27,653 nt of DNA from a virus: positions 1 through 27,653 of IMG/VR virus record IMGVR_UViG_3300032224_001557; one strand, given 5' to 3'. The notes under the pieces are model-generated. The model saw nothing but the letters and a program-made list of their open reading frames with translations. It did not search any database and had not been told where the DNA came from. The position numbers were made by a program, and so were the translations under genes. Below are positions 9,666-27,653 of the stretch, piece after piece; the stretch's first letter is position 1; each line of letters opens with the position of its first letter.

Positions 9666-10239
9666 TGCATTATTTGAATTTGAAGATCGTCTAGCGCGAT
9701 TTACAGGTGCTCCGTATGTGGTGGCCACTGATGGTTGCACCCATGCTCTTGAACTGTGTTTTCGATACCAAATTATCAAGCACTGTAGATTCACAGCCTA
9801 CACATATCTCAGTGTGCCGCAAACACTGAGAAATCTTTATATTGATTTTGACTTGATTGATGAAATCTGGACTGGTGAATATCAATTCCATGAAACCAAT
9901 ATATGGGACAGTGCAAGACTGTTGCGACAAGGCATGTATCGACCAGGCCAGATGCAGTGTTTGAGTTTTGGAAATGGCAAACCATTACAGCTCGGACGTG
10001 TGGGTGCTGTGTTGACCGACGATGCTGAAGCTTATCGTGTGTTGAGTCGATGGCGCAGTGATGGCAGAGATCTACACATCGCACCCTGGAGTTCTGTTAA
10101 ACGATATGGACCAGGTTGGCACTATTGTCCTACTTTGGAAGATTGCACACGTGGCATCGAAAAACTTGCTTTGGTAGATCAAGAACCTAAATATATTCAA
10201 TATCCGGACTTGAGAACCATTGACTTTAAGTTCCTGTGA
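9658..10239 (+). CDS. Shortened DegT/DnrJ/EryC1-type PLP aminotransferase
   Basis: 193 residues. The only in-frame start after the upstream stop is GTG 9658, eight bases inside galE with GGAAG ahead of it. The N-terminus FEDRLARFTGAPYVVATDGC then THALEL (8-33) matches the 'FE..FA.y.g.kya..v.sGT.AL.lal' opening of DegT sugar aminotransferases. MQCLSFGNGKPLQLGRVGAV (98-117) matches the 'SFh.tKnl..GeGGav' strand holding the PLP lysine (the Lys in GNGKP). Full-length members are about 370 residues, so the middle is reduced and most of the C-terminal domain is missing. It may be a minimal active form, a partner subunit or a decaying gene. It would aminate a keto-sugar nucleotide if active. Confidence 0.68.
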   Translation: MYDALFEFEDRLARFTGAPYVVATDGCTHALELCFRYQIIKHCRFTAYTYLSVPQTLRNLYIDFDLIDEIWTGEYQFHETNIWDSARLLRQGMYRPGQMQCLSFGNGKPLQLGRVGAVLTDDAEAYRVLSRWRSDGRDLHIAPWSSVKRYGPGWHYCPTLEDCTRGIEKLALVDQEPKYIQYPDLRTIDFKFL

Positions 10240-10248
10240 CAGTATAAT
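10220..10248 (+). promoter_or_regulatory. Sigma70-type promoter for folE
   Basis: TTGACT (10220-10225), 17-base spacer, TATAAT (10243-10248). The -35 overlaps the end of the aminotransferase gene. Predicted start is near 10255, giving a leader of about 35 bases that contains CGGAGAA as the folE ribosome binding site. Confidence 0.78.
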
Positions 10249-10289
10249 CAATCAACGGCCATCCTCGGCCATAACTCGGAGAATAAAAA

Positions 10290-11060
10290 TTGACCTATAA
10301 CAAAGTATATATCAGCAACGATCCAGATGAAACAGCACTGGACGCAATGGCGGGCGCTGGCGGCTATTCAGAAGGCTATCTAGGCGGAGTGATTCGTGCT
10401 AAAATGAAACGTGATGGTAGGCGTTTCTGGGCAGGAGACAATATCAGCGAATATGTTTCAGATGTCATAAAAGACAAACTCATCGACGAAGCCACTGTAG
10501 CATTTGAAGGTGTACTGGACGCACTACTGATTGATCGTGAAACGGATCCTAACAGCAAAGGTACAGCTCGTCGCCTTGCTAAAATGTATTTTAATGAAAT
10601 AATGGCAGGAAGATATGAACCAGAACCAGATGCAACAGCATTTCCAAATGATTCGGCGGACCGTTACGAAGGCATGCTCGTTGTTCGCAGTGAGCTTAGG
10701 AGTATGTGCAGTCACCATCACCAACCCGTTGTTGGTGTTGCTTATATTGGTATTTTGGCTGCTAACAAACTTATTGGCTTGTCCAAGTACACACGAATTG
10801 CTCAGTGGTGCGCCCGGCGAGGTACTCTCCAGGAGGAACTTTGTATTGATATTGCTCGGGAGATACAACGTGCCACCGACTCAGAAAACGTAGCAGTCTA
10901 CGTTCAAGCAACTCACGGATGTTGTGAGAATCGTGGCATCATGGCACACAGTAGCCTAACACAGACCACAGTACTCAAAGGTGCATTCAACACCGACGGC
11001 AACACAAAGAAAGAGTTCTTTGACAACATCAAACTGCAACAAGAGTTTGCACCGAGGTAA
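10290..11060 (+). CDS. folE: GTP cyclohydrolase I (FolE)
   Basis: 256 residues starting at TTG 10290, chosen because CGGAGAA lies seven bases upstream and no ATG occurs before residue 20. Core signatures are complete: RSMCSHHHQP (137-146) with Cys140 and His143 as zinc ligands and His142 catalytic, KLIGLSKYTRIAQWCARRGT (160-179), QEELCIDIA (181-189) and VQATHGCCENRG (205-216) with Cys211 as third ligand. The enzyme opens GTP to 7,8-dihydroneopterin triphosphate, the first step of both folate and 7-deazaguanine synthesis. With queD and queE downstream and a DpdA-like gene upstream, the deazaguanine role is favoured. The N-terminal ~70 residues are an extension relative to the catalytic core. 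Confidence 0.92.
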   Translation: MTYNKVYISNDPDETALDAMAGAGGYSEGYLGGVIRAKMKRDGRRFWAGDNISEYVSDVIKDKLIDEATVAFEGVLDALLIDRETDPNSKGTARRLAKMYFNEIMAGRYEPEPDATAFPNDSADRYEGMLVVRSELRSMCSHHHQPVVGVAYIGILAANKLIGLSKYTRIAQWCARRGTLQEELCIDIAREIQRATDSENVAVYVQATHGCCENRGIMAHSSLTQTTVLKGAFNTDGNTKKEFFDNIKLQQEFAPR

Positions 11061-13156: not shown

Positions 13157-13606
13157 ATGGCAAAATATCTTTCAACAAAACACTACGGTCACAACATTGG
13201 ACTCAGTGCTGTGTTCCGTCAACCCAACGCAGATCATAGTCACTGTCACCTGCTACATGGTTACAGTCTGGCATTCACATTCACGTTTGGATGCGATCAA
13301 CTGGATGATAAAAACTGGGCAGTGGACTTTGGTGGACTCAAACAGCTCAAGGCCTGGCTAGAAGACAAGTTTGATCACAAGTTGGCTCTGGATCTTGCTG
13401 ATCCACATCTGAAAAAATTTCAAGAACTTGAAGATTTGGGCTTGGCCGAAATCAGAATTTTTGACGGTGTAGGCGCAGAGAAGTTTGCCGAACACGCATT
13501 TAATTTTGCCGATCAGTTGATCCGTGAAAAGACCAACAGTCGTTGTTATTGTGTTCGTGTAGAATGTGCAGAGCATGGGGCCAACAGTGCCATCTACGAA
13601 GGCTAA
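13157..13606 (+). CDS. queD: 6-carboxy-5,6,7,8-tetrahydropterin synthase (QueD), phage type
   Basis: 149 residues with an AGGAG ribosome binding site. The opening strands lead to DHSHCHLLHGYSLAFTFTF (26-44), corresponding to the catalytic Cys (Cys30) and zinc-binding 'C-x-x-x-HGH' of QueD, with the last His changed to Tyr36. DKNWAVDFGGLKQLKAWLED (51-70) is the family's 'V.DF..lK' helix, followed by KFDHKLAL with the 'LDH' catalytic His and VRVECAEHGANSAIYEG as the C-terminal substrate strand. QueD converts dihydroneopterin triphosphate, made by FolE upstream, to 6-carboxytetrahydropterin for QueE, encoded 400 bases downstream. The unusual HGY could be compensated by the neighbouring His27, His29 or His31. 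Confidence 0.86.
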   Translation: MAKYLSTKHYGHNIGLSAVFRQPNADHSHCHLLHGYSLAFTFTFGCDQLDDKNWAVDFGGLKQLKAWLEDKFDHKLALDLADPHLKKFQELEDLGLAEIRIFDGVGAEKFAEHAFNFADQLIREKTNSRCYCVRVECAEHGANSAIYEG

Positions 13607-13769: not shown

Positions 13770-13994
13770 ATGAAGACTGCAAAAGAAATAGCCGATACAT
13801 TATTCAGTAGAGTCAAATCTACTGATATGCAATTTTATGAAGTGATAAGGGAAGTACAACCAGGTTGGTTACCTAATGGTACGGTACCATTCAATGTCAA
13901 ATGCCGTAATGGTGTAGCAACATTCACAGTATATGCATCAAATCAAATTGATGCAGAGGATCAAGTAACTAATTGGTTAGAAAAAGATGAGTAA
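13770..13994 (+). CDS. Small hypothetical protein
   Basis: 74 residues with an AAGGA ribosome binding site. An N-terminal helix (KTAKEIADTLFSRVKS) is followed by beta-like segments (FNVKCRNGVATFTVYASNQI) and an acidic end. No motif recognised. It overlaps the queE start by eight bases, which suggests translational coupling with queE; its position between queD and queE does not by itself imply a pathway role. Confidence 0.62.
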   Translation: MKTAKEIADTLFSRVKSTDMQFYEVIREVQPGWLPNGTVPFNVKCRNGVATFTVYASNQIDAEDQVTNWLEKDE

Positions 13995-14826
13995 AATTAA
14001 GATAGCAGAGCTGTTTTACAGCATTCAAGGTGAAGGTCGTTACATGGGTGTTCCCAGTGTGTTCCTTCGTACATTCGGTTGTAACTTCAAATGTGCAGGC
14101 TTTGGTATGCCTCGCGGCGAACTCAGTCGAGAAATTGAAGACATTGCCTCTCGGGTACATTATTACAAAACATATGAAGAACTACCACTGGTATCTACCG
14201 GGTGTGATAGTTATGCTAGTTGGGATCCTAGATTCAAAGACCTGAGTCCCATGATGGAGAGCAACGGCATTGTGGAACGTATCATGGAGATACTGCCGCA
14301 TGGTCGTTGGGAAGATGAGCATTTGGTGATCACCGGTGGTGAACCCTTGTTGGGTTGGCAACGTGCGTATCCAGAATTGTTGGATCACCCCAATATGCAT
14401 GGTCTTAAAGAAATCACATTTGAGACCAACGGCACTCAAAAGCTCACCGCAGAGTTCAAAGAATACCTACAGCGGTGGAGAGCACAACGTGAGATAACAT
14501 TCAGTGTCAGTGCCAAACTGAGTTGCTCAGGCGAAAGCAGAGACGAAGCCATACAGCCTGAAGTTGTATGCGAATACGAACAGGTAGGTACAGCATATCT
14601 AAAACTAGTTGTTGCAACGGAGGCCGATGTTGAAGAAGCACTATGGACAGTGGGAGCGTATCGTCAAGCGGGTTTTCAGGGTCATGTTTATCTTATGCCT
14701 GTTGGAGGGGTTGAAAGCGTGTACACTCTTAATAATCGCCGCGTCGCAGAACTCGCAATGAAGCACGGTCTACGCTACAGCGATAGATTGCAGGTACCGT
14801 TGTTCAAGAACGAGTGGGGCACTTGA
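13987..14826 (+). CDS. queE: 7-carboxy-7-deazaguanine synthase (QueE), radical SAM, with loop insertion
   Basis: 279 residues. The N-terminus ELFYSIQGEGRYMGVPSVFL (8-27) and RTFGCNFKC (28-36) are classic QueE. The third cluster cysteine appears only at Cys73 in TGCDSYASWD, so the iron-sulfur motif reads C-x3-C-x36-C instead of the usual C-x3-C-x2-C. LVITGGEPLLGWQ (about 113-125) and ITFETNGTQ are the SAM-binding and substrate strands, and VYLMPVGGVES sits near the C-terminus. The enzyme contracts 6-carboxytetrahydropterin to 7-carboxy-7-deazaguanine. The insertion looks like a phage-type variation rather than damage, since the flanks are intact. The gene overlaps its neighbours at both ends. 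Confidence 0.88.
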   Translation: MSKIKIAELFYSIQGEGRYMGVPSVFLRTFGCNFKCAGFGMPRGELSREIEDIASRVHYYKTYEELPLVSTGCDSYASWDPRFKDLSPMMESNGIVERIMEILPHGRWEDEHLVITGGEPLLGWQRAYPELLDHPNMHGLKEITFETNGTQKLTAEFKEYLQRWRAQREITFSVSAKLSCSGESRDEAIQPEVVCEYEQVGTAYLKLVVATEADVEEALWTVGAYRQAGFQGHVYLMPVGGVESVYTLNNRRVAELAMKHGLRYSDRLQVPLFKNEWGT

Positions 14827-17419: not shown

Positions 17420-17649
17420 ACGAACGAATTAAACAACTTTGGGACACAGCGGCCAAACTTGAATCCGATCCTTCTTGGGAAGGGCAGACTAGGTTTATAG
17501 AAAAGTTCGCTGAGTTGATTGTGCGGGAATGTATGCAAGTAGTCCATAACGGAATTAATAATGCAACAGATTGGGATAGTAGTAGTTGGGATCAATGTTG
17601 TGAGAATAGAATGAATGCAATTCAAAGGCATTTCGGAGTTGAAGAATGA
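17416..17649 (+). CDS. Small hypothetical protein, MNERIK type
   Basis: 77 residues from ATG 17416, with AGGAAAG as ribosome binding site and an ATGA overlap upstream; a GTG at 17389 is in frame but unlikely. The protein is helical and acidic, opening MNERIKQLWDTAAKLESDPS, with EKFAELIVRECMQVVHNGIN in the middle and FGVEE at the end. I associate proteins opening MNERIK or MNKRIR with many phages, none with known function. An 11-codon frame just upstream (17205-17240) begins with similar bases. Confidence 0.68.
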   Translation: MNERIKQLWDTAAKLESDPSWEGQTRFIEKFAELIVRECMQVVHNGINNATDWDSSSWDQCCENRMNAIQRHFGVEE

Positions 17650-17810
17650 AAACAGTTAAAGAAATATTGGCCATTGCAATTTTGATAATGTGTACAATTA
17701 TGGTTGTAGCAACCTGGGATATGCCAGGCAACGCCGGATGGCTGATAGCCCTAGTGGGATGGCTCGAAATTGTAGTAAATCGACCCAAAGAAACAAATAA
17801 TGACCTTTAA
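17646..17810 (+). CDS. Small two-segment membrane protein
   Basis: 54 residues, ATGA overlap with the gene before and 11-base overlap with the gene after. ILAIAILIMCTIMVVATW and GWLIALVGWLEIVV are both long enough to span a membrane, separated by a short polar turn (DMPGNA), with a charged C-terminus (NRPKETNND). It has the size and layout of holin-like or accessory membrane proteins, but no lysis gene is nearby and no function is assigned. Confidence 0.6.
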   Translation: MKTVKEILAIAILIMCTIMVVATWDMPGNAGWLIALVGWLEIVVNRPKETNNDL

Positions 17811-18027
17811 ATCACACACGAGCTGTATACGCACCATTCGGCAGGGCGACGACAATTTCCTCGTACAAGATGGTATGGTACTCAGTCCCAGAGCAGGCTT
17901 CGAAATCTCATCAGAATGTCCCAATGAATATAAAATGATCATCAGCCGGTGCATTGATCGTGGCTGGCTACAACCCGTGGCATATATGAAAGATTCAGAA
18001 CTAACGTGGGAAATTTTGCAACAATGA
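17800..18027 (+). CDS. Small hypothetical phage protein
   Basis: 75 residues. A beta-rich start (SHTSCIRTIRQGDDNFLVQD, then GMVLSPRAGFEI) is followed by ECPNEYKMIISRCIDRGWLQ then PVAYMKDSEL, a helix-turn pattern I associate with small phage proteins. Overlaps neighbours at both ends (11 and 4 bases), so it is part of the translated train. Function unknown. Confidence 0.65.
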   Translation: MTFKSHTSCIRTIRQGDDNFLVQDGMVLSPRAGFEISSECPNEYKMIISRCIDRGWLQPVAYMKDSELTWEILQQ

Positions 18028-18404
18028 TCTACTTATTACTATTTTTATTCTTCTTCAAACACTTTCTGGCCGACTACCTGTGGCAAAATCAGCGTATGCT
18101 CACAGAAAAAGGAACCTATGGTGCTCTGGGTGGCCTACAACACGCCGGCTTGCACGGAGCCTTTACCTATGTGATCCTGTTGCATTTTTTGGATCCGGTG
18201 TTGGCCTTGGCCTTGGCTGTGTTTGATGCTTTCCTACACTATCACATAGACTGGGCCAAACGCCAGTTCAGTAAGGGACTCACACCAGATGATCGCACCT
18301 TCTGGATCTGGTTTGGCATTGACCAACTGTTACACGCCATAACCTATTTTGTTTTGGTCTACTTAACCGGACTACTCATATTCAACGGAACAACTAACAC
18401 ATGA
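18024..18404 (+). CDS. DUF3307-like membrane protein
   Basis: 126 residues from ATG 18024 (ATGA overlap); a GTG at 18006 is in frame but sits inside the previous gene. The opening LLLFLFFFKHFLADYLWQNQ matches the DUF3307 start 'l..fH.l.DF.lQ', followed by YGALGGLQHAGLHGAFTYVI (the family's 'L..H...H' His pair), a hydrophobic segment LALALAVFDAFLHYHIDW, and LLHAITYFVLVYLTGLL at the end. Three to four membrane spans. The conserved His and Asp suggest a membrane-bound metal site, but no activity is known. Confidence 0.72.
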   Translation: MIYLLLFLFFFKHFLADYLWQNQRMLTEKGTYGALGGLQHAGLHGAFTYVILLHFLDPVLALALAVFDAFLHYHIDWAKRQFSKGLTPDDRTFWIWFGIDQLLHAITYFVLVYLTGLLIFNGTTNT

Positions 18405-18619
18405 ACAAACCCATATCCAACAGCAGAAACACATCCGAACTTGCAGTGGCGCAGGTCGGCAATCGTTTTGATCTAATACTAATACTGGCCAAACGAGTTC
18501 GTGAACTCAAGGCCGGACACCGGGCCAAGATAACAGGTGCCGGTGGTATCAGTGCCACAGCCTTGATGGAAGTTGAACAGGGACTTATTGGTAGAGAATA
18601 CCTTAAGAAAGTAAAATGA
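18401..18619 (+). CDS. rpoZ: RNA polymerase omega subunit homologue
   Basis: 72 residues, ATGA overlaps on both sides. VAQVGNRFDLILILAKRVRE (16-35) matches bacterial omega '[20 protein letters not shown]', and ATALMEVEQGLIGREYL (52-68) matches 'VIALREIEEGLI'. The MNKPIS start replaces the host 'MARVTVQDC' strand. Cellular omega binds the beta' C-terminus and helps assembly. A phage copy could swap into, or compete within, the host enzyme to alter promoter choice. It is a little shorter than E. coli omega (91) and lacks the acidic tail. It sits in a train of small unknown genes with no other transcription protein recognised. Confidence 0.75.
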   Translation: MNKPISNSRNTSELAVAQVGNRFDLILILAKRVRELKAGHRAKITGAGGISATALMEVEQGLIGREYLKKVK

Positions 18620-18975
18620 TCAAACACATTCATCCCCGCGGTAGGTACATGATGGTCATAGGTGGCAGTAGCGGCACTTATGTCAATGCATACAGTGGCT
18701 CACAGGGTGTGGGTAATCTGCGTTTTAATACCACTAACCAACAGATGGAAGTGTATGATGGCACCGCTTGGACCTTGTTGAACACGCCCGATGCCACCAT
18801 AGGCCTAAACGACGAAGCCGAATCTTTGCTGGATTGGGCACGTGAACGACGCGAAGAAGAACGGGCATTCAAAGAGAGTATGAAACATCATCCGGGCCTA
18901 CAAGAAGCATACGAACGCCTTGAGATCATGAAGGCACTCACATTAGAACAGGACAAACAAAATGAAATGGTTTAA
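18616..18975 (+). CDS. Hypothetical protein with short virion-like motif
   Basis: 119 residues. GVGNLRFNTTNQQMEVYDGT (31-50) followed by AWTLLN resembles the 'lRyN..t..lEvYdG..W..l' motif found in phage tail-fibre and neck-type proteins. The C-terminal half is a charged helix (DWARERREEERAFKESMKHH, then LQEAYERLEIMKAL). It may be a virion accessory protein, but no other structural gene is near. ATGA overlap upstream, 14-base overlap downstream. Confidence 0.62.
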   Translation: MIKHIHPRGRYMMVIGGSSGTYVNAYSGSQGVGNLRFNTTNQQMEVYDGTAWTLLNTPDATIGLNDEAESLLDWARERREEERAFKESMKHHPGLQEAYERLEIMKALTLEQDKQNEMV

Positions 18976-19303
18976 GAAAAAAATTGCCGGTTGGGCCAGA
19001 GAAGGCAATCAATTGGAAGAGGCAAACATGATCGAATCCATGTCTGATCGTGACATGGCCGTGGTAAAATCAAAGAAGCATCGAGGTCTCAATATCATAG
19101 GCACTCAAGGCACAGCTCGCAGTTTTGACGCCGCGGGCATGACCTTTACTTTGTACAAGAGTGTGGGCGGCTTTGTGTTAGAAACACATAGGTATGACTC
19201 ACGAGCAGATCGTAGAATCAATGAGCTGTACATGATCGACGAAGAAAAGGATTTTGCCACTCAAGTGGCACAAGCGATCATGATTGAAAGTGTAAAACTA
19301 TGA
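18962..19303 (+). CDS. Hypothetical protein
   Basis: 113 residues with a basic start (MKWFKKKIAGWAREG), a central beta-rich part (RGLNIIGTQGTARSFDAAGM, TFTLYKSVGGFVLETHRYDS) and a C-terminal helix. No motif recognised. It overlaps both neighbours (14 and 4 bases) and is part of the same translated train. Confidence 0.65.
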   Translation: MKWFKKKIAGWAREGNQLEEANMIESMSDRDMAVVKSKKHRGLNIIGTQGTARSFDAAGMTFTLYKSVGGFVLETHRYDSRADRRINELYMIDEEKDFATQVAQAIMIESVKL

Positions 19304-19782
19304 CCGAAGAACGCATTGCAAGACCCATTGTCAAGAACAAATACTGGATTGTGGAAGACCATGGCCAGAAGGTGGCCACCATACAGGCAGTGGAAGAAGG
19401 TGGCTTTGTGTATGTACACGATGATCGACGCGAGCCGTTTGCTAGTATCAAAGTCCTAAGTCGGCAATACAACATTGTATTTGACAAGCCGGTACGGAAG
19501 ACTGCAGAACAACAGGTCGAAGGCAATCACGTTTACGGTTTCCCCACACAGTTCCGTCCACACAACGAACTGTATGATGTACAACGCAAGTTGCCGATCT
19601 TTACCAAGACCGCAAAAAGCAAAAGTTACTTTTGTGCCGGCTACTACATCATCAAGTTCGACAGTCATTGGGCCCGTGCCACGTGTCCAAAATTGATCAC
19701 ACTGAATCGTTATGAATTCCGTGGTCCTTACTTGACACCGGAACAAATGCAAACCGAGCTCAAAGCCGCCAATGGATCATAA
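19300..19782 (+). CDS. Hypothetical conserved-looking phage protein
   Basis: 160 residues, ATGA overlap upstream. The first half (RPIVKNKYWIVEDHGQKVAT, then EGGFVYVHDDRREPFASIKV) looks like a beta-rich domain and has the style of conserved phage proteins. The second half has SKSYFCAGYYIIKFDSHWAR and a helical end. No catalytic motif recognised. It overlaps the next gene by 11 bases. Confidence 0.68.
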   Translation: MTEERIARPIVKNKYWIVEDHGQKVATIQAVEEGGFVYVHDDRREPFASIKVLSRQYNIVFDKPVRKTAEQQVEGNHVYGFPTQFRPHNELYDVQRKLPIFTKTAKSKSYFCAGYYIIKFDSHWARATCPKLITLNRYEFRGPYLTPEQMQTELKAANGS

Positions 19783-19990
19783 TCTCAGCATTCATGTGCG
19801 TATGTTCAATGATCGTGTACGGGCCATGAACCAAACACAGAAGAAAGAACTCACTCTCACTGCCGCAGAAGCACGTAATCTACACTCAGATATATTTGCA
19901 TTGCTCACACACGTGGCTGAGATTTCTGGCAATAACACTGGCGGAACAGAAGATATCACTGTATTGATGGATGGTGGCGGTTTTAAGTAA
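19772..19990 (+). CDS. Small hypothetical protein
   Basis: 72 residues, overlapping the previous gene by 11 bases. The middle QKKELTLTAAEARNLHSDIF is a helix with a common small-phage-protein pattern, and the C-terminus ends in TVLMDGGGFK. Function unknown. It is the last of the tight train; the 44-base gap after it holds GATAAATA (20008-20015), a possible late-promoter core. Confidence 0.62.
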   Translation: MDHNLSIHVRMFNDRVRAMNQTQKKELTLTAAEARNLHSDIFALLTHVAEISGNNTGGTEDITVLMDGGGFK

Positions 19991-20034
19991 TATACGCCTA
20001 TAACGAAGATAAATAAAATACAGGAAACATTGAG

Positions 20035-20334
20035 ATGTCAAGACCAAAGCCAACAGTACTACTCGAGCATGTGAACAAGTTAAATTACAAGAGTGATCAG
20101 ATTCTGAGCTCTGAGGGAATTTGGGCTGTGTACTACGAAGGTAAACCCATCAACTTAAAAACGGCCAACGTGCTGATTGCATATCCAGGTCCAAAATACA
20201 AAAAGGTCTCGTTCTCCAACAGTGGTCACGCCATTAACTTGTGCAAGAAACTCAACGTATTATTTAAAACTGACAAATTCGAGGTTGTGTTATTGGCACA
20301 GGGTGAAACTGTTTTCTCGCAAAAGAAATTGTAA
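20035..20334 (+). CDS. Hypothetical phage protein
   Basis: 99 residues. A mixed alpha/beta domain: KPTVLLEHVNKLNYKSDQIL at the start, IWAVYYEGKPINLKTANVLI in the middle and FEVVLLAQGETVFSQKKL at the end. No motif recognised. It has its own upstream gap with GAGATG as a weak ribosome binding region. Nine bases separate it from the next gene. Confidence 0.68.
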   Translation: MSRPKPTVLLEHVNKLNYKSDQILSSEGIWAVYYEGKPINLKTANVLIAYPGPKYKKVSFSNSGHAINLCKKLNVLFKTDKFEVVLLAQGETVFSQKKL

Positions 20335-20343
20335 CTGTGTGCC

Positions 20344-20718
20344 ATGTCCGATGACGCAAGAACACAGGCGTATTGGCAACAGCATATTATAGATCATGTT
20401 GAGCATCCGTTGTGCCCTTGGCCCGAAACAACATTTCGTGATTTTTGGTTCAATCCACTGAATCGAACCAGTCTTAGACTGACCGAGTTTGGACATCGAA
20501 TAGCCGTGGGACTTGCTGGTCTAGAAAATTTTCGTGTGGATCTTGACAGCAAGATAAAACCCAAACATTTTCTATTATTCGAAAAGGCCTGCGTGAGTCC
20601 TTACTATGTGAAGAAGCTGGATCAGTTGGTGGTGTTTGACCAAGAGACTGCTGTGATGATACAGTTACACGCCGGCAATTTTGATGCTTACTTTAGGAAC
20701 CGTTTGACATTTAGGTAA
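20344..20718 (+). CDS. Hypothetical phage protein
   Basis: 124 residues. PETTFRDFWFNPLNRTSLRL then TEFGHRI and the following KIKPKHFLLFEKACVSPYYV give a helical, aromatic protein with a pattern I associate with uncharacterised phage proteins whose helix-turn-helix style segments suggest DNA contact. That is only a resemblance. It is the last gene before the promoter region of the right-hand cassette. Confidence 0.65.
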   Translation: MSDDARTQAYWQQHIIDHVEHPLCPWPETTFRDFWFNPLNRTSLRLTEFGHRIAVGLAGLENFRVDLDSKIKPKHFLLFEKACVSPYYVKKLDQLVVFDQETAVMIQLHAGNFDAYFRNRLTFR

Positions 20719-20725
20719 TACCTTT

Positions 20726-20759
20726 GTAGTACTTAAAAAGTAGTACTTTTGTAGTACTT
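20726..20759 (+). repeat. Three direct copies of GTAGTACTT before the cassette promoter
   Basis: GTAGTACTT occurs at 20726-20734, 20740-20748 and 20751-20759. The middle copy lies in a longer palindrome, AAAAGTA-G-TACTTTT (20736-20750), and the third copy runs into the -35 box at 20758. The arrangement looks like a repressor or activator site. The same 9-mer occurs in reverse orientation at the far end of the cassette. Confidence 0.65.
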
Positions 20760-20795
20760 GTCCATAATTCCTTTATTTGCTATAATACAGGCATA
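20757..20795 (+). promoter_or_regulatory. Cassette promoter, left copy of a 39-base repeated module
   Basis: TTGTCC (20758-20763), 17-base spacer, TATAAT (20781-20786). The 39 bases 20757-20795 match 27554-27592 at 35 positions. An AAAAAGGAG ribosome binding site follows before the ATG at 20818. Control by the overlapping 9-mer repeats is inferred. Confidence 0.75.
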
Positions 20796-20817
20796 GTGTA
20801 ACAAAAAGGAGTCTGCA

Positions 20818-20994
20818 ATGGACGAGCCGGTAAAACTGTATTGCACACAAGATCCAGAAACCAAAGAGTGGTTAGTGTGGTTCTCTCATCCTCTTGGTGG
20901 CATGAATGTAATTGAAACATTCAACGACGAAACCGAAGCACGAGAATTTTGGCAACAGCAGATAGATTCTGCAGACTTTGGAGATCAAGAATAA
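20818..20994 (+). CDS. Small hypothetical first gene of the cassette
   Basis: 58 residues with a strong AAAAAGGAG ribosome binding site. It opens MDEPVKLYCTQDPETKEWLV and ends in an acidic helix (NDETEAREFWQQQIDSADFG). No motif recognised. Its stop codon overlaps the helicase start (TAATG), so it could act as a leader for helicase translation or as a small partner or antidote protein. Neither role is shown by the sequence. Confidence 0.68.
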   Translation: MDEPVKLYCTQDPETKEWLVWFSHPLGGMNVIETFNDETEAREFWQQQIDSADFGDQE

Positions 20995-23219
20995 TGGACC
21001 GTATGTACTGCTACCTTTGGTGGGAAAAAAGCCACCCGGACGAGTGCAAGTTTGGCGAACGCTGGGTGTTCAATGGTCAAGATCCAAAGACAGAAATATA
21101 CAAACGCATCAAAGATAGTCTCGGAGTCCGCAAAGATTTGCTGAAGTCTGGCGAGGTGGAACTATTTGATCATTGGGATGTCACAGAATATGCTAAAAAG
21201 ATAAACCGCTACTATAAGCAAAGTCGTGTTGATGATGCTATTCGTCCTCACATTGGTCACCGCAAAGACGGTTCTAGAGAAGTCCATTCCTTATCACCTC
21301 AAGAGGTTAAAAACAAGGTTAGCAAGTTTTTAGCCAAACAAGGACAACCCCTCGACACATTGGGTTTGGCGGTCTGGCAAGCACGTGAACTTGAGAAATT
21401 TGTAGAATCTGTCAAACAAGGATCTCGTACCATCGGTAGTGAATATTGTGGACGGTTCGGCAAAACTACTTTTGCGGGCGCCGCTATACGAGAACTCAAC
21501 ACACCATTGACTGTAATTGCTAGTTATGTGTTGACCTCTTTTACTAGTTTTGAAAATGATTTGTCTAAATTTGAACAATTTAAAGATCTTGTGCTAGTAG
21601 ATACCAAAGACGATGATTATCAAGAAACCATCGATCTTAACCTAGCACACGGTAAACAAGTCGTTGCCTTTGTTAGTTTATGTGCCGGCGGCGCAAGGCA
21701 AAGTAGGATTGATTTTCTTTCTAGTCGTTCAGTTCAACGACTATGGTTCATTGACGAAGCCGACTACGGAGCCCAGCGGGCTAGTCAGGCTAATATGTTA
21801 AAAAATGCACGACATCTTAATGATATAGTATTTCCGATGACAGGTACTGATGCAGATCAGGCCACAGCATTATGGGAATTAGATGCTCCGTTGCGGACCA
21901 CTACCTATACAGCATTGTTGATGGAAAAACACAATCCTTGCAACAAGTATTCAACTACATTAAAATATTTTACTATTGATTCTAGAAGATCAGACAAGGT
22001 AGTAGACATTGAATTTTATCAAGCAGGAATTAAAGAATTAGTAGATCAATTCCTGAAGGAAAATCCTGATATTGACTCAGACTTATTAGGTTCTTGGGGT
22101 AAATCTGCACAAAATGTAGTTAAAGCCAAAGGTTGGTGGACTCGTTGGTTTGAAGCCGCCTTCTTAGGAAAAAGTGATTTTTTACAAATGAGCATTGATT
22201 ACCAAACTGGGAGAAAGTCTAAAGATGGCATCAAGGTGGCTATGGTATTTTTGCCCGGAAGTATGCCACGAAACAAAGACAATGATCAGTTAGCCGAATT
22301 GGTTGATGTTGCAAATCAATGTCTTCCTGCATATATCGTTGTTCCGGTGTATGGTCAAGTTACTACTAACAAACAAGCAGAAGCATTGGTAAAAGAAAAA
22401 ATTGAAACTGCAACAAAACAAGGAAAGAATGTTCTTATCCTTAGTGCCGGAATGGCACAAAGAAGTTTCGGAGTAGGAAAAATTACCGAGGTACACTTGT
22501 GCTATGATGGTAGCGATGCAAGTGGTACAAATCAAAAAATTTGGAGGGCAGTGACACCAGAAGACATTGGCAAAATTGCACGAATCTTCAGTTGGAGTCT
22601 TGACCCAAATCGAGATACCAAGTTTGATGCCGCAATTATAGACACTATTACCAATTTTAAACAAAGCCGTGGCATAGCAAGTGCAAAGGATGCGTTACGT
22701 GAAGTGTTAAAGACCTTAGATATCTTTCGATGCACCGAAGATGGCAGACTCAAAATTCAGCCCGACGACTACCTTGAACAACTACAGGCTAGAAATAGTA
22801 TCAGTCGAGTTGGCGGCATGCAAGCACCAGTTAGTAGTCTGACAGATGATGAACTTGAGGCTCTCAAAAACGGCAACGCAAATGCCTGGCATGCGGCAAA
22901 ACAAGAAGTTTCTGCCACTGGAAAAAAATACAAAGATTCAACCAAACAAGGCAACAAGCCTACTTCAACAAAATCCAGCCGCGCCAAACTACTAGAACAT
23001 GCTAGACAAGTGATTGCGACTATTATCGAAAATACAGATATTATTGTGTACGGAACAAATAGCACTCAACTCAATGAGGCACTAGAGAAACTCAAACATG
23101 ATAAACAGGCACAGCGATCTGTTGAAAGTGTGTTTAACATTCCTTTTGAACTGCTGAAAGATTTGTTTGATAGAAATATCATCAAACAAGATTATGTTGA
23201 ACTCTTAGTGGATCGATAA
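20994..23219 (+). CDS. GIY-YIG-like domain fused to an SF2 helicase
   Basis: 741 residues from ATG 20994; a longer frame from TTG 20949 would run inside the preceding gene. Residues 1-75 resemble a GIY-YIG/T5orf172 nuclease: YCYLW (5-9), KFGERW (19-24), IYKRIK with Arg38, and a possible Glu65. An SF2 motor follows: GRFGKTT (153-159) as Walker A, LWFIDEADYG (250-259) as DEAD box, PMTGTD (281-286) as motif III, a motif V-like AQRSFGVGKI segment and NQKIWRAVTPED as a motif VI-like segment. The last ~170 residues are helical and unassigned. Coupled with methyltransferases directly downstream, it resembles the restriction subunit of a type III or ISP-like system, except that the nuclease is GIY-YIG. 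It could also be a replication helicase. Confidence 0.7.
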   Translation: MDRMYCYLWWEKSHPDECKFGERWVFNGQDPKTEIYKRIKDSLGVRKDLLKSGEVELFDHWDVTEYAKKINRYYKQSRVDDAIRPHIGHRKDGSREVHSLSPQEVKNKVSKFLAKQGQPLDTLGLAVWQARELEKFVESVKQGSRTIGSEYCGRFGKTTFAGAAIRELNTPLTVIASYVLTSFTSFENDLSKFEQFKDLVLVDTKDDDYQETIDLNLAHGKQVVAFVSLCAGGARQSRIDFLSSRSVQRLWFIDEADYGAQRASQANMLKNARHLNDIVFPMTGTDADQATALWELDAPLRTTTYTALLMEKHNPCNKYSTTLKYFTIDSRRSDKVVDIEFYQAGIKELVDQFLKENPDIDSDLLGSWGKSAQNVVKAKGWWTRWFEAAFLGKSDFLQMSIDYQTGRKSKDGIKVAMVFLPGSMPRNKDNDQLAELVDVANQCLPAYIVVPVYGQVTTNKQAEALVKEKIETATKQGKNVLILSAGMAQRSFGVGKITEVHLCYDGSDASGTNQKIWRAVTPEDIGKIARIFSWSLDPNRDTKFDAAIIDTITNFKQSRGIASAKDALREVLKTLDIFRCTEDGRLKIQPDDYLEQLQARNSISRVGGMQAPVSSLTDDELEALKNGNANAWHAAKQEVSATGKKYKDSTKQGNKPTSTKSSRAKLLEHARQVIATIIENTDIIVYGTNSTQLNEALEKLKHDKQAQRSVESVFNIPFELLKDLFDRNIIKQDYVELLVDR

Positions 23220-23220
23220 T

Positions 23221-24444
23221 ATGATACCTCGTGTAAAATTTAACATTGAGCAAGTGGCACGGATGATGGTCGACCGGATCCCGGCAGAATATATTGATAA
23301 TCCAACCAGTCGATTCCTTGACCCTGCGATTGGCGGCGGCCAGGTTGTAAAACTACTTGAAGATCGTGTACAATGCAACATTAACACTCGGGTATTTGGA
23401 TGTGAGGCTGAGCCATTGTATGTAGATTATGCTCGTAACAAAAATCAGTTACAAGGTACCTATGCTACTGTTAAATACAATGATATAATAGAAAAAGGAT
23501 TTAATATGGATTTTGATGTAATTGTTGGCAACTTTCCTTTTACTGAAACTCCTGGTGAAGCGCGAGAAGAAAGCGGTAACAGTAATAACAGTACGTTGTA
23601 CAATGATTTTATGGAGGTTAGTTTTAGAACGGCCAAATATATCAATGTCATCATTCCGGCTGGTTGGGCAAAAAAGTCCATCCAAGTAACTCGTTACCTA
23701 AACAAAGGATTAAAAAGTGTAATCTTTTTAGATGCCAAAAAAGTATTTCCTGATGTTAATATCCGCAGTGGTATCACTGTAGTAGAATTTGAATTTGGTT
23801 ACGATGGTCCTGTATCTATTACTACCACCGACGGTGTAACGTATCAACAAACAAGACAAGATAGTATACAAGATATTAATCCAGCAGTAAAAACTGCATT
23901 ATCTAAAATTGATGCATTTGGTGGATTAAACGGAATAGTTAATCATGGAGATTTTGAAATTCCAAAAGGTACAAAAGGATCTTTAGACCGTTTGTTAGAG
24001 TCAAGCAAACTTTATTCCAAAGACAAAACAAACAAACATACTGTTCCGGTATTATTATACTCAGGTGGCAACACTAGAGAAGCAACCTGGGCCTATGCTA
24101 ACTATTCTATGGCTAGTGCGAGTGGATATAAAGTCACATTCCCAAAAGCCAGTGATCGTTTTATACTAGGTAAGGTTAGAATTTTATCTCCAGGACAAGG
24201 TGTTAGCACCGCTCTCTATTACATCAAATGTGATACCAAAAAAGAGGCTGAAAAATGGTTGGCTTGGTTAGAACATTCAATTGTTTCTTATTCATTGAAG
24301 TATCATAAAACAAACGATACTGTTAACACCTACAACAATAGTATGGGACACATTCCTAGGTGCCCACCTATAGAGTTGACTGACAAAAATCTTAAAAAAC
24401 TTTTTGAGTTCACTAATGAAGAATATGCTGTTATACAATCCTAA
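23221..24444 (+). CDS. Adenine-type DNA methyltransferase (Eco57I-like), NFPF motif
   Basis: 407 residues, starting one base after the helicase stop. Motif I FLDPAIGGGQVV (32-43), the acidic FGCEAEPLYVDYA (59-71) and motif IV in FDVIVGNFPF (98-107) are in the gamma-class order used by N6-adenine methyltransferases. The catalytic tetrapeptide is NFPF, not NPPF. The region after motif IV keeps the YNDFMEVSFRTAKYINVIIP (motif V-VI) and GITVVEFEFG pattern of Eco57I-type enzymes; the following ~200 residues are a plausible target-recognition part. AT-rich and Lys/Asn-rich compared with the gene at 24941. It would methylate phage DNA, protecting it from the neighbouring helicase-nuclease if the two form one system. 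Confidence 0.75.
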   Translation: MIPRVKFNIEQVARMMVDRIPAEYIDNPTSRFLDPAIGGGQVVKLLEDRVQCNINTRVFGCEAEPLYVDYARNKNQLQGTYATVKYNDIIEKGFNMDFDVIVGNFPFTETPGEAREESGNSNNSTLYNDFMEVSFRTAKYINVIIPAGWAKKSIQVTRYLNKGLKSVIFLDAKKVFPDVNIRSGITVVEFEFGYDGPVSITTTDGVTYQQTRQDSIQDINPAVKTALSKIDAFGGLNGIVNHGDFEIPKGTKGSLDRLLESSKLYSKDKTNKHTVPVLLYSGGNTREATWAYANYSMASASGYKVTFPKASDRFILGKVRILSPGQGVSTALYYIKCDTKKEAEKWLAWLEHSIVSYSLKYHKTNDTVNTYNNSMGHIPRCPPIELTDKNLKKLFEFTNEEYAVIQS

Positions 24445-24910
24445 TTCGATGACCTTAGAACAGATGATCACACATATAAGACATCGTGTTTATATGTCCG
24501 GAATTGAACGTGATACATTGAGAATAAAGGCTACTAGTGAAGTCTTTACTCCTACAGATATAGTTCAAACAACTTTAAATAAAATTTCAAAAGAAAAATT
24601 CCAAGATCCTACCAAAACGTTTCTGGACAATAGTTGTGGTGATGGGCAATTCCTTGGCGAAGTTCTAATACGCAAGATGGAGAATGGAAGCACCTTTGAA
24701 CAGGCACTGTCCACAATCTACGGTGTTGACCTAATGTCGGACAATGTAGACTTGTGCCGTGAGCGTTTGCTATGTGGTCAAGAACACTTGCGGCACATAG
24801 TAGAACGGAACATTGTGTGTGCCGATGCACTAACTTATGATTACAGTTTTAACGGAACAAACTCAAATCAAGAAGATTTAAATTGGGATAATTTATTTGA
24901 ATTCGTTTGA
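24416..24910 (+). CDS. Methyltransferase N-terminal half (SAM-binding part only)
   Basis: 164 residues if the ATG at 24416 is used; ATG 24449, just after the upstream stop, is the alternative, and no start has a good ribosome binding site. SEVFTPTDIVQ (41-51) is motif X, TFLDNSCGDGQFLGEVL (68-84) motif I, IYGVDLMSDNVDLCRERLL (101-119) motif II and NIVCADAL (132-139) motif III. The protein stops at LNWDNLFEFV, where an NPPY motif IV should follow. It may be an orphan SAM-binding subunit, a partner for the 407-residue protein upstream, or a truncated gene. Similar short phage proteins exist as far as I recall. Confidence 0.68.
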   Translation: MKNMLLYNPNSMTLEQMITHIRHRVYMSGIERDTLRIKATSEVFTPTDIVQTTLNKISKEKFQDPTKTFLDNSCGDGQFLGEVLIRKMENGSTFEQALSTIYGVDLMSDNVDLCRERLLCGQEHLRHIVERNIVCADALTYDYSFNGTNSNQEDLNWDNLFEFV

Positions 24911-24935
24911 CATCAAATTAATAATTCATTATAAT
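24907..24935 (+). promoter_or_regulatory. Consensus sigma70 promoter with predicted leaderless start
   Basis: TTGACA (24907-24912), 17-base spacer, TATAAT (24930-24935): both hexamers are perfect. The start codon at 24941 lies six bases after the -10, where transcription would begin, and no ribosome binding site is present. Confidence 0.82.
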
Positions 24936-24940
24936 AAACC

Positions 24941-25891
24941 ATGATCACAACCATCAATGGTGATATGCTGGACCAAGAGTCTGCAATCAAAGACAACTCA
25001 GTGGACCTGTTGTTGACAGATCCACCTTACAACATCAGTGAGGACGGTGCCCAACCAGTTTGGATCGACAAGGCCACCGGCAAAAACAAAACTACCATAC
25101 ACAATCAAAAATTCAGTGAGAGCTTTGACCAGAACTGGGACGAAGTTGATCACAATGAATTCTTATCTCAAATAGACAGTTGGGCCACGTTTTGGTTTAA
25201 AAAAATGCGTAAGGGCGGGGCCTTTGCCATCTTCATCAGTGACCAGTATGTGAGCTATCTGTGGACTGCCATGGAACGTGCAGGCTTTGAGCCCAAGCGA
25301 GTGTGGACCTGGAAGAAGCCAGCGGCAGTGCCATTTAATCGACAGGTCAATCCTGTGAGTGCCTGCGAGTATGTGTTGTTTGGTATCAAGCCCGGAGGCA
25401 AACGTACTTTCAACGCCGATACCGCTGAAGGCAGTCGTGTTGAACGTTATGCCAGTGCAGACAAGATCAGTAGTATTGTGTACAAGATGATCAAAGATGC
25501 TCCGGATCTAGCAGACCTTAATACCATCTTTGCTGAAGCCAAAAAAGAAGCGGTCAGGATGTTGCGAGATCGTAAGCGCACCGACACAGGACTGGTACAG
25601 TGTGTGATTCCCAACACCATCACCTACAGTGGCGGTCTGGGCAAAAACAAAATCCATCCCACACAAAAGCCCACCGAAATCTTGGAGTACTTCATTGAGC
25701 TGTTGAGCCGTCCCGGAGATCTGGTGTTGGATACCTTTGCTGGTTCGGGTGCCACCGGAGTGGCCTGCCATAATCTTGGGCGTGAGTGTGTTTTAATTGA
25801 GCGTGACACCAAGATGTTTGGTAAAATGCAGGCCAGGATTGATGCTCTTCACACCGAAACATTAGATAACAATTTGTTCGAAAACAGTTGA
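24941..25891 (+). CDS. Beta-class DNA methyltransferase (N6-adenine or N4-cytosine)
   Basis: 316 residues. Motif IV LLLTDPPYNISEDG (23-36) comes first and motif I VLDTFAGSGATGVA (262-275) near the end, the order that defines beta-class amino-methyltransferases such as CcrM and HinfI methylase. TQKPTEILEYFIELLSRPGD is the family's motif X segment. The DPPYN form favours adenine. The target sequence cannot be read. It has its own perfect promoter and higher GC than the cassette's other methyltransferase, so it may be an independent orphan enzyme rather than a system partner. Confidence 0.88.
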   Translation: MITTINGDMLDQESAIKDNSVDLLLTDPPYNISEDGAQPVWIDKATGKNKTTIHNQKFSESFDQNWDEVDHNEFLSQIDSWATFWFKKMRKGGAFAIFISDQYVSYLWTAMERAGFEPKRVWTWKKPAAVPFNRQVNPVSACEYVLFGIKPGGKRTFNADTAEGSRVERYASADKISSIVYKMIKDAPDLADLNTIFAEAKKEAVRMLRDRKRTDTGLVQCVIPNTITYSGGLGKNKIHPTQKPTEILEYFIELLSRPGDLVLDTFAGSGATGVACHNLGRECVLIERDTKMFGKMQARIDALHTETLDNNLFENS

Positions 25892-25916
25892 CCTTTATTT
25901 GACTTTATCGTATACT
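25888..25916 (+). promoter_or_regulatory. Sigma70-type promoter for the ParB-like gene
   Basis: TTGACC (25888-25893), 17-base spacer, TATACT (25911-25916), starting in the stop region of the methyltransferase gene. Predicted start is near 25923, giving a leader of about 47 bases before ATG 25970. Confidence 0.7.
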
Positions 25917-25969
25917 ATGATTGTCTTGTTTAAGTTATGAGACATTCAATCAACTTTAAAGGAAAAATT

Positions 25970-27139
25970 ATGACGACAGCAACTTTGCCACGAACTATAA
26001 ATCGTGGATCCAATCCCTATGCACCCATTGTTAAACAACAAAATCAGCGTTTGACTCCAGTGCATAACAACGGTGTATATCAGCCCATCACTCAACGTGC
26101 TGGTGCAGTACACAATCATTCCGGAATACAACAGGCACTAAAAATTCTTGCCGCTCGTATGGGTGGGAAGAAATTCTCCAACGCCCACTGTGGCGAATTG
26201 ATTTGGGTACCATTTAGTTTACTGGATATCAATATTGAAATTCAGCGAGATGTTGAGGTTGAACACCAGGCCAAAATTATCACACGTTTTGACCCACGCA
26301 TCTATATGCCAGTTATGGCAACCAAACTGGCTAATGGCAGATATTCTGCTTGGGAGGGTCAACAAACTGCCTGTACCTTGTATCATTTGCATCAAGCCGG
26401 ATTATTGGAAGAGGACTTCCTTGTACAAGTAAAGGCATTTGACGAAGACCTAACAGTCCCCGGTTCCACACTTGTTGGCGAGGCTGTTGGCAATTATGGA
26501 TTCCGACAAATCAACGGAGGTATGCGTAAGCCTATTGATGCATTCCATTTGCATCGTAGTCGTGTAAATGGTGTTCGTATGTACAATTCTGCGTTTGAAG
26601 AAGATGTACAAAGTGAAATTATTCAACAGACGCTAGAACAACACAATATGTTTCCTGCCAAATCCTCTGATGCCAAGTACAACAGGGCCACGCCAGGTAT
26701 GATAACTTACATTCATGGTTTGAACTTGATTGCCGGCCACGGTACCGAAATGAAAAAGTTTGATATAACCATTACTGATCTTGAATGGGCATTGAAATGG
26801 CATAACACCTACTACCCCAACGAAAAGGGAGTAGATGGCGGTTTTATTCTAGCATTCGGTCGATTACACGCCGCGGCTAGAGCCAGCAAGCCAGCAATCA
26901 CTTTAGATGCCGCAACAGAAGCAGATTTGTTCAAATTGTTTCAAAGCGAATATGGTAGTCCAAAGAGCTTTCATAATTTCTGCCAACAACGTTGGAAATC
27001 GTTTACTGCTCGTAACAATATGCCCGAGTCTTGGAGCGACAGTTGCCTAACACCAATCTTGGTAATGGACTATATCAATTGGGGCGGACAATGTGCATTG
27101 CCTCAAGTGCCTCACATGACTACCTACGCAGGTATATAA
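25970..27139 (+). CDS. ParB/sulfiredoxin-fold nuclease-like protein
   Basis: 389 residues from ATG 25970, chosen because AAAGGAAAA precedes it; an in-frame ATG at 25937 lacks a ribosome site. Residues 78-135 resemble a ParB-like nuclease domain: LIWVPFSLLDINIEIQRDVE (77-96), IITRFDPRIYMPVMATKL (103-120), then GRYSAWEGQQTA (123-134), where cellular ParB has 'y.vidGqhR..A'. The usual Arg is replaced (GQQTA). The rest is helical and unassigned. No Walker ParA partner is present, so chromosome segregation is unlikely. In phages such domains act as nucleases or DNA-modification partners. Confidence 0.68.
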   Translation: MTTATLPRTINRGSNPYAPIVKQQNQRLTPVHNNGVYQPITQRAGAVHNHSGIQQALKILAARMGGKKFSNAHCGELIWVPFSLLDINIEIQRDVEVEHQAKIITRFDPRIYMPVMATKLANGRYSAWEGQQTACTLYHLHQAGLLEEDFLVQVKAFDEDLTVPGSTLVGEAVGNYGFRQINGGMRKPIDAFHLHRSRVNGVRMYNSAFEEDVQSEIIQQTLEQHNMFPAKSSDAKYNRATPGMITYIHGLNLIAGHGTEMKKFDITITDLEWALKWHNTYYPNEKGVDGGFILAFGRLHAAARASKPAITLDAATEADLFKLFQSEYGSPKSFHNFCQQRWKSFTARNNMPESWSDSCLTPILVMDYINWGGQCALPQVPHMTTYAGI

Positions 27140-27505
27140 ATGATTGATGCCAAACAATATTATTTCTATTTGTGGCGTCATCGTTATGTTGACGATGCCA
27201 CAGACGAAATTGTCACACGCACCTGCCTAGGCATAACCAGTAATCCTACATCAAGGATACAGGGATATGAAGGACATGTTGGTCACGTGGTGCAGTTCAC
27301 AGGTCTATGGACCGGCACCGAACGTTTGATACGAGATCTCGAAGCCAGACTTAAAAGTGAGTTTTATGACTACCTGTTTGTTGGCACCGGAGATTTTAGA
27401 TATGAATGGATCGACGAAAACATAGTACACGAAGATGTGCATAAGTGGGTAGAATGGGAAGTGGCTAATTCCTACATTGGTATTGAAAAAGTACTACCTA
27501 GCTGA
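27140..27505 (+). CDS. GIY-YIG-like endonuclease
   Basis: 121 residues, abutting the ParB-like gene. YYFYLW (7-12) fits the GIY strand, CLGITSNPTSRIQGYEGH (29-46) fits the YIG strand and following helix with Arg39, and RLIRDLEARLKSEF (62-75) carries the usual metal-binding Glu (Glu68). GIY-YIG domains of this size are nicking or cutting enzymes, and as a single domain it would need a partner for DNA targeting. It shares a Y-x-Y-L-W opening with the helicase N-terminus at 20994. It is the last gene of the cassette, followed by a terminator. Confidence 0.62.
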   Translation: MIDAKQYYFYLWRHRYVDDATDEIVTRTCLGITSNPTSRIQGYEGHVGHVVQFTGLWTGTERLIRDLEARLKSEFYDYLFVGTGDFRYEWIDENIVHEDVHKWVEWEVANSYIGIEKVLPS

Positions 27506-27524
27506 TGTAATACTCAAGTACTAC
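27489..27524 (-). repeat. Two reverse copies of the 9-mer found at the cassette's left end
   Basis: AAGTACTAC, the reverse complement of GTAGTACTT, occurs at 27489-27497 (inside the last codons of the GIY-YIG gene) and 27516-27524. The second copy extends to a 14-base stretch that is the exact reverse complement of AAAAAGTAGTACTT at 20735-20748. Confidence 0.6.
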
Positions 27525-27530
27525 TTTTTG

Positions 27531-27553
27531 ACCCTGCCCAGTGCAGGGTTTTT
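27531..27553 (+). terminator. Rho-independent terminator ending the cassette
   Basis: ACCCTGC (27531-27537) pairs with GCAGGGT (27543-27549) around the loop CCAGT, followed by a U-run (27549-27553). It lies 25 bases after the GIY-YIG stop codon and immediately before the next promoter, insulating the two units. Confidence 0.9.
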
Positions 27554-27592
27554 CTTGTCCATAATTCCCCTTTTTGCTATAATATAGGCATA
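27554..27592 (+). promoter_or_regulatory. Right copy of the repeated promoter module
   Basis: TTGTCC (27555-27560), 17-base spacer, TATAAT (27578-27583). It matches the left copy at 20757-20795 at 35 of 39 positions, and the downstream CAAAAAGGAGT ribosome site is shared too. It drives the gene that begins at 27614. Confidence 0.75.
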
Positions 27593-27613
27593 CAAAGCAA
27601 AAAGGAGTTCAAG

Positions 27614-27653
27614 ATGCGACACGTAGCCGGTTTTAGTAACAGCACCAAAATTC
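27614..27653 (+). CDS. Start of next gene, truncated by the window end
   Basis: Thirteen codons, MRHVAGFSNSTKI, after an AAAAGGAG ribosome binding site. The VAGFSNST stretch loosely recalls the 'vGFSGGKDS' PP-loop of PAPS reductase-like and QueC-like ATPases, but the residues differ at the key positions and too little is visible for a call. Confidence 0.6.
   Translation, partial: MRHVAGFSNSTKI

Follow-up and report, generated by a model that had tools for sequence, protein, structure and literature searches.

The locus analysed here raises the question of whether a set of closely packed phage genes for a helicase-like motor, DNA methyltransferases and GIY-YIG-like proteins constitutes a restriction-modification system, and which of those genes belong to it. 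The DNA is an IMG/VR virus record (IMGVR_UViG_3300032224_001557), analysed on one strand, and "the window" refers to its whole length of 27,653 bases; related loci carry L numbers. We consider it probable that three of the genes form a phage-encoded, ATP-dependent restriction-modification module, Type ISP/Type I-like, split into subunits and with a GIY-YIG-like nuclease. The observations on which that reading is based are the gene order, the SF2 translocase fold, the methyltransferase motifs, the replacement of the C-terminal part of the methyltransferase between relatives and the clean presence or absence of the genes at one site.

Gene order and extent of the module

All seven open reading frames reported in the initial annotation are present on the same strand and are closely packed. 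From position 20,738 of the plus strand, they run in the order leader, motor, gamma-class methyltransferase, methyltransferase half (hereafter, the half), beta-class methyltransferase, an uncharacterised gene and a small GIY-YIG-like gene, with a terminator at the end. The leader (20818..20994) encodes an acidic protein of 58 residues (14 D/E, 3 K/R) with homologues in several loci, the motor (20994..23219) a protein of 741 residues, the gamma-class N6-adenine DNA methyltransferase (23221..24444) one of 407 and the half (24449..24910) one of 153. They are followed by the beta-class methyltransferase (24941..25891), the uncharacterised gene (25937..27139) and the small gene (27140..27505), whose product matches the endonuclease family phrog_681 at E 0.004. 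The reading frames lie where they had been placed except for two starts, ATG 20994 for the motor and, most likely, ATG 24449 for the half, which were preferred over the mechanical ORF starts because they better fit the homologues.

The description of the locus as extending from one promoter to one strong terminator is partly borne out. A sigma70-like promoter (20758-20786, scoring 10/12) lies 5' of the leader within a plus-strand block (TTGTCC-17-TATAAT with TG before the -10 element, 20758..20795) that has a near-identical copy after the terminator (27555-27592), and the plus-strand intrinsic terminator itself (27530..27550) is strong, with a fold z of -2.7. What did not stand is the single promoter: a perfect sigma70-like promoter (TTGACA-17-TATAAT, 24907..24935, plus strand) lies at the right-hand end of the module, directly 5' of the beta-class methyltransferase, and is absent in the related locus L004, and a further promoter-like site at 25888 scores 10/12. 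The left boundary carries an 11-base repeat, AAGTAGTACTT (20738..20748), which returns at 27489-27526 and has 5 matches against 0.43 expected. It also flanks the equivalent gene block on both sides in L004 (4380 and 7195), and the repeats at these block ends represent a possible operator or recombination site.

The extent of the module is defined by L004. This locus is 93.6% identical to the window over 17631-20995 and 97.7% over 24941-27653, the two matches meet within five bases, and positions 20994-24940 have no counterpart: the motor, the gamma-class methyltransferase and the half are all missing, and the stop of the leader homologue overlaps the start of the beta-class methyltransferase that it precedes. 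Because L004 is without exactly three genes, the beta-class methyltransferase, the uncharacterised gene and the small GIY-YIG-like gene are neighbours and not parts of the module. The missing block is 3.9 kb long with a GC content of 38.9%, compared to 45% in the upstream flank, and based on that lower GC an insertion of the module is favoured over its deletion in L004, which is retained as the alternative. A clean empty site, and the finding that comparable positions in related phages either have another module or lack one, are also consistent with a selfish homing-type cassette, in which the GIY-YIG-like nuclease would cut empty, L004-like alleles, the module would copy itself and methylation would protect the carrier. 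We regard that explanation as very unlikely since neither an SF2 translocase nor exchanged recognition domains are necessary for homing, and since this type of module occurs in unrelated contexts, with neighbours that vary between capsid, RNR, GroEL and recA-like genes (named by eye from sequence).

Consequently, the proposal of a self-contained cassette of seven genes has to be reduced to the motor, the gamma-class methyltransferase and the half, which alone travel together, often with a leader before them in this phage group. Leader homologues immediately precede the motor gene in L043, L021 and L116, and in L020 one is in frame with it; the leader may accordingly be a component of the module or of the slot that it occupies. 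In L116 (699-8408), upstream genes like those of the window are followed by several extra genes and then by a leader and a split motor of 55% identity, an arrangement that suggests turnover of modules at the leader.

Regarding the neighbours, close relatives of the uncharacterised and small GIY-YIG-like genes were found in L004 and L005 only, and of the beta-class methyltransferase in L004 only, with weaker general beta-class matches elsewhere. The former two genes (25937-27505 in the window) stay paired in both L004 and L005, the L005 pair (9013-10552) being within a 225-kb contig that has no motor match; a tblastn search of phage records with the two genes gave no matches, nor did a search of phage records at the DNA level. 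The beta-class assignment agrees with the match to N6_N4_Mtase (E 1e-36). The name "ParB-like" for the uncharacterised protein was dropped, as there was no match in Pfam, NCBIfam or PADLOC and only marginal ones in PHROG (E 0.17) and among PDB sequences (E 0.75). Elsewhere, the window has FolE-, QueD- and QueE-like genes (10290-11060, 13157-13606 and 13987-14826, respectively), and as these synthesis genes are consistent with it, deazaguanine DNA in the carrier phage is plausible; a candidate base-exchange gene (2694-4241) had no Pfam or PHROG family match.

The linkage of the three core genes was assessed by scanning IMG/VR with the half (389 hits, 80 loci kept) and with the motor (46 related loci). 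Homologues scattered independently among phages had been named as grounds for rejecting a unit; for the core we found strict linkage, with the methyltransferase next to the motor in 46 of the 47 testable non-redundant motor loci and the half present too in 41 of the 47. The half gene commonly overlaps or abuts the 3' end of the methyltransferase gene. In MA01, the motor and methyltransferase are fused into a protein of 1074 residues followed by the half, while in Synechococcus phage S-CAM7 the two genes are adjacent and different isolates hold two different versions at one locus. No motor came up when 84,980 bacterial and archaeal species were scanned, although the scan used short peptide patterns whose silence is no proof of absence, and the corresponding scan for the half gave three hits, with L145 having no system around it; alignments of more distant motors were too divergent for use in scans. 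Based on these near-empty scans, the module looks phage-borne.

The motor and its putative nuclease domain

The SF2 helicase fold suggested for the motor is confirmed by its predicted structure (pLDDT 83.6) and the PDB matches of that model, the best of which in Foldseek was SauUSI (7clg, E 4.5e-11), with EcoR124I HsdR (4beb) and LlaBIII also matched. Helicase motifs are evident in the sequence, including a Walker A-like CGRFGKT (residues 152-158, 21447..21467, plus strand), a DEAD box (residues 254-257, 21753..21764, plus strand) and QKIWR. In sister motors the Pfam family ResIII was matched with 61 bits in L043 (E 1.2e-16) and with 21.8 bits, compared to a cut-off of 22.5, in L054. Searches of PDB sequences with profiles of the motor and of its N-terminal domain gave nothing useful.

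The N-terminal domain (residues 1-133, 20994..21392, plus strand) is predicted to have a beta-beta-alpha-beta-alpha topology (separate model, pLDDT 90.3). Across 31 relatives K19, G21, D62, D80, D81, R84 and H98 are shared and Y7 is nearly invariant, most have a basic residue near position 40, and the acidic position is Asp80/Asp81 and not Glu. Three of the four best VIA-align matches were GIY-YIG nucleases, at a Z of only 4.8-5.3; those to HIGLE and Slx1 (Z 5.3) are weak, with unrelated ribosomal proteins close behind (Z 4.8), and Foldseek with the domain alone gave nothing below E 0.5, ribosomal proteins being on top. No nuclease family was matched by the sequence of the window motor's N-terminus. 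In the sister motors of L043 (E 9e-9) and L015, the GIY-YIG family T5orf172 was above the Pfam cut-off, and hhalign detected no relation between the window-type and T5orf172-type domains, so that their homology is argued from motif order and model topology only. The window domain is taken as a divergent subtype of GIY-YIG-like domain and, as sequence profiles fail to connect the subtypes, nuclease activity of the window motor is a prediction. The GIY-YIG label of the initial annotation is kept on the strength of a weak fold match and the sister proteins.

The divergence of this domain is of importance for a second explanation, that of a methylation-based exclusion or epigenetic system that does not cut, similar to BREX/Pgl, in which the phage genome would be marked by the methyltransferase, and DNA lacking methylation would be detected, and its replication blocked, by the motor with a degenerate nuclease domain. 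In favour of this, the glutamate expected in a GIY-YIG domain is not conserved in the window-type domain, where Asp80/Asp81 alone are invariant, and the protein is without a nuclease family match. Nevertheless, all 31 sequences of the family have the Y, KxG, D and E-x-H positions, and in sister modules either a T5orf172 domain can be recognised or there is a PD-(D/E)XK-like nuclease, which makes exclusion without cutting unlikely.

The PD-(D/E)XK-like nucleases were found where the motor has been exchanged. In L019, L033, L046, L053 and L085, and probably L027, a separate ResIII helicase and a small PD-(D/E)XK-like protein are beside the same methyltransferase and half. The small proteins have the D...(Q/E)xK arrangement of PD-(D/E)XK nucleases (assigned by eye), and two of them that were searched against Pfam had no match. 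In L034 and L045, the ResIII helicase and an Eco57I methyltransferase are fused in one chain. Isolates of Synechococcus phage ACG-2014f (L018, 3514-7083; L019, 1872-5819) have alternatives at the same place beside the half, either a GIY-YIG-type motor and methyltransferase, or a PD-(D/E)XK-like nuclease, methyltransferase and ResIII helicase; in L019 the ResIII/PD-(D/E)XK-like pair occupies the position that the GIY-YIG-type motor has in isolate KJ019151.

These exchanges, together with the 41 of 47 loci in which all three genes are linked, argue against a third explanation, that the motor is a replication or repair helicase and the methyltransferases are unrelated orphans adjacent to it by chance. 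The repair helicase RadD is the best structural match of the motor by VIA-align Z (20.8, versus 19.1 for LlaBIII 4xqk, with rmsd 4.7 over 396 aligned residues) and T5orf172 proteins have a reported link to phage recombination (PMC7824862), but with the motor replaced by a nuclease and ResIII pair beside the same methyltransferase and half we find the explanation scarcely credible.

In 19 of the 47 non-redundant loci, two genes encode the motor, divided between its two RecA domains at one of two positions (for example, L016 4354/4379, L020 4402/4389, L042 4384, L062 4458/4455 and L003 12555/12557), and there is often a sigma70-like promoter or an overlapping stop and start at the split. Sequencing errors are an unlikely cause, as many contigs have splits at these two places, and in several of them the stop and start overlap or there is promoter-like sequence at the split.

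The methyltransferase, its half and its variable part

The gamma class of the methyltransferase, as proposed from the window alone, is confirmed by Pfam Eco57I (35.6 bits, cut-off 25.3), and its family profile matches M.TaqI (E 2e-8). Motif I is intact (FLDPAIGGGQ, 23314..23343, plus strand), whereas motif IV is NFPF (23530..23541, plus strand), a variant that is rare in the family, in which 55 of 58 members have NPPY (41) or NPPF (14) and one each NYPY, NSPY and NFPF.

The half (phrog_4376, E 1.5e-21) has the AdoMet-binding motifs X and I without a motif IV and resembles the N-terminus of CamA (E 1.5e-5). That it is a decayed gene was ruled out, as it represents a separately conserved family whose gene usually overlaps or abuts that of its partner. 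The partner protein has motif IV at its very start in P-SSM2 (036/037) and S-CAM7 (075/076), and so the two proteins jointly have the motif set of one enzyme. The Prochlorococcus phage P-SSM2 pair (L006, 3406-4366), a protein with motif IV (NPPY) and an overlapping next gene with motif I, is an apparent split and permuted DNA methyltransferase. In the window, L069 and others the partner keeps a motif I of its own, and based on this the half may serve such systems as a second subunit with a regulatory or structural role.

Past motif IV, the methyltransferase is highly variable. The C-terminal part in the window (23542..24444, plus strand), the putative target-recognition domain, is 23-29% identical to those of its eight nearest relatives, compared to 45-50% for the motor and 46-75% for the half. 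In the closely related pair L120 and L122, the proteins are 96% identical in the motor, 84% in the N-terminal part of the methyltransferase, 28% in its C-terminal part and 80% in the half; their DNA is 91.5% identical from the start of the motor to about codon 112 of the methyltransferase (motif IV), beyond which there is no similarity until 76% is reached around the half. L134 and L137 are similar in this respect (93, 74, 23 and 92%, respectively), with DNA similarity also ending at about motif IV and returning at the half; L134 holds one whole methyltransferase gene more than L137, beyond which their DNA is 98.5% identical. Conservation up to motif IV with unrelated sequence after it is the signature of specificity domain exchange, and the C-terminal part looks like a recognition domain under selection for change. 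The evidence for this exchange comes from relatives and not from the lineage of the window itself.

The window has a single methyltransferase. Tandem arrays of methyltransferase genes were seen in L117 (3311-9817, five), L143 (4262-10571, four), L141 (10244-14324, three) and L016 (5734-11352, five). Such arrays adjoin one motor and one half, and some of the copies begin exactly at motif IV. Their N-terminal parts are up to 98% identical and their C-terminal parts 18-46%, the values within the five-copy array of L117 being 92-96% and 22-46%, respectively.

Proposed function and comparison with known systems

The restriction-modification reading envisages that the methyltransferase and the half form a heterodimer, the latter as a separate AdoMet-binding subunit, that the variable C-terminus recognises a short target sequence and that an adenine is marked in the phage's own DNA. 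On DNA without the mark, the complex would engage the motor for ATP-driven translocation and the N-terminal GIY-YIG-like domain would cut or nick that DNA, with rival phage, plasmid or host DNA as potential targets. The adenine target, the heterodimer, translocation and cleavage are all predicted from knowledge of the protein families. Set against this reading are the weak fold support for the window's N-terminal domain (Z 5.3; Foldseek E >0.5), the lack of a profile relation between that domain and the T5orf172-type domains, the NFPF in place of NPP[YF], the motif I that the partners of the half keep in the window, L069 and others, and the fact that the exchange of specificity is seen in relatives. 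The attack on unmarked DNA in the manner of Type III or ISP systems that was first envisaged for the locus fits all findings, including the linkage of the core, once it is separated from the seven-gene unit.

We also lean, with more reserve, towards a wider interpretation in which such modules represent a phage-restricted class of restriction-modification system for phage-phage competition, having a constant motor, a split methyltransferase, recognition domains that are exchanged at motif IV and kept as tandem methyltransferase cassettes, and an interchangeable nuclease-motor (GIY-YIG-like or PD-(D/E)XK). Phages are usually viewed as the targets of restriction; if the interpretation is true, dozens of phage modules would mean that large phages use diversifying restriction systems of their own to fight rivals. 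New DNA-methylation specificities could readily be drawn from the tandem methyltransferases, and the split methyltransferase, with motif IV and motif I in separate proteins, would make the assembly of a gamma-class enzyme directly testable.

We found no description of the module as a system in the open-licence full-text literature. The genes of S-CAM7 and MA01 are of the same family (motor, methyltransferase and half) and have the database label "type II restriction-modification system restriction subunit", although they are members of other subfamilies than the window. A phage-borne logic of mark and attack has been proposed for the Mom and REase-fold fusions of jumbo phages, but these have an acyl modification, an unrelated nuclease and no set of translocase, methyltransferase and half (PMC7824862). 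M.TaqI and CamA are related to the methyltransferase and the half by the profile matches given above, but in the phage family the AdoMet-binding and catalytic regions also occur in two proteins (P-SSM2, S-CAM7). SauUSI, the best Foldseek match of the motor, is a Type IV enzyme that cuts modified DNA and is without a methyltransferase. Type III systems combine a beta-class Mod with Res, whereas the methyltransferase linked to the motor here is gamma-class; the beta-class gene adjoins the module only in the window and occurs without it in L004.

The closest likenesses are to Type I and Type ISP systems. As in Type I (HsdR/HsdM/HsdS), there is a separate motor subunit, which resembles HsdR 4beb, and an exchangeable specificity part; unlike in Type I, that part is fused to the methyltransferase, the predicted nuclease is GIY-YIG-like and no HsdS-like gene with recognition domains was recognised among the module's open reading frames. 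With Type ISP (LlaBIII, LlaGI) the module shares the order of functions, namely (putative) nuclease, SF2 motor, gamma-class N6-adenine methyltransferase and recognition domain, as well as the motor's match to LlaBIII 4xqk and a gamma-class methyltransferase with a variable C-terminal part. It differs in consisting of three genes instead of one chain, in being phage-borne, in its predicted GIY-YIG-like rather than Mrr-family (PD-(D/E)XK) nuclease and in the AdoMet-binding half, while the single-chain trait of Type ISP is partly seen elsewhere in the fusions of MA01 and L034/L045. Since it has several chains, an apparently different nuclease and an extra AdoMet-binding subunit, the module is not a member of either type; it apparently works like a Type ISP or Type I system, yet by the tests made lies outside both.
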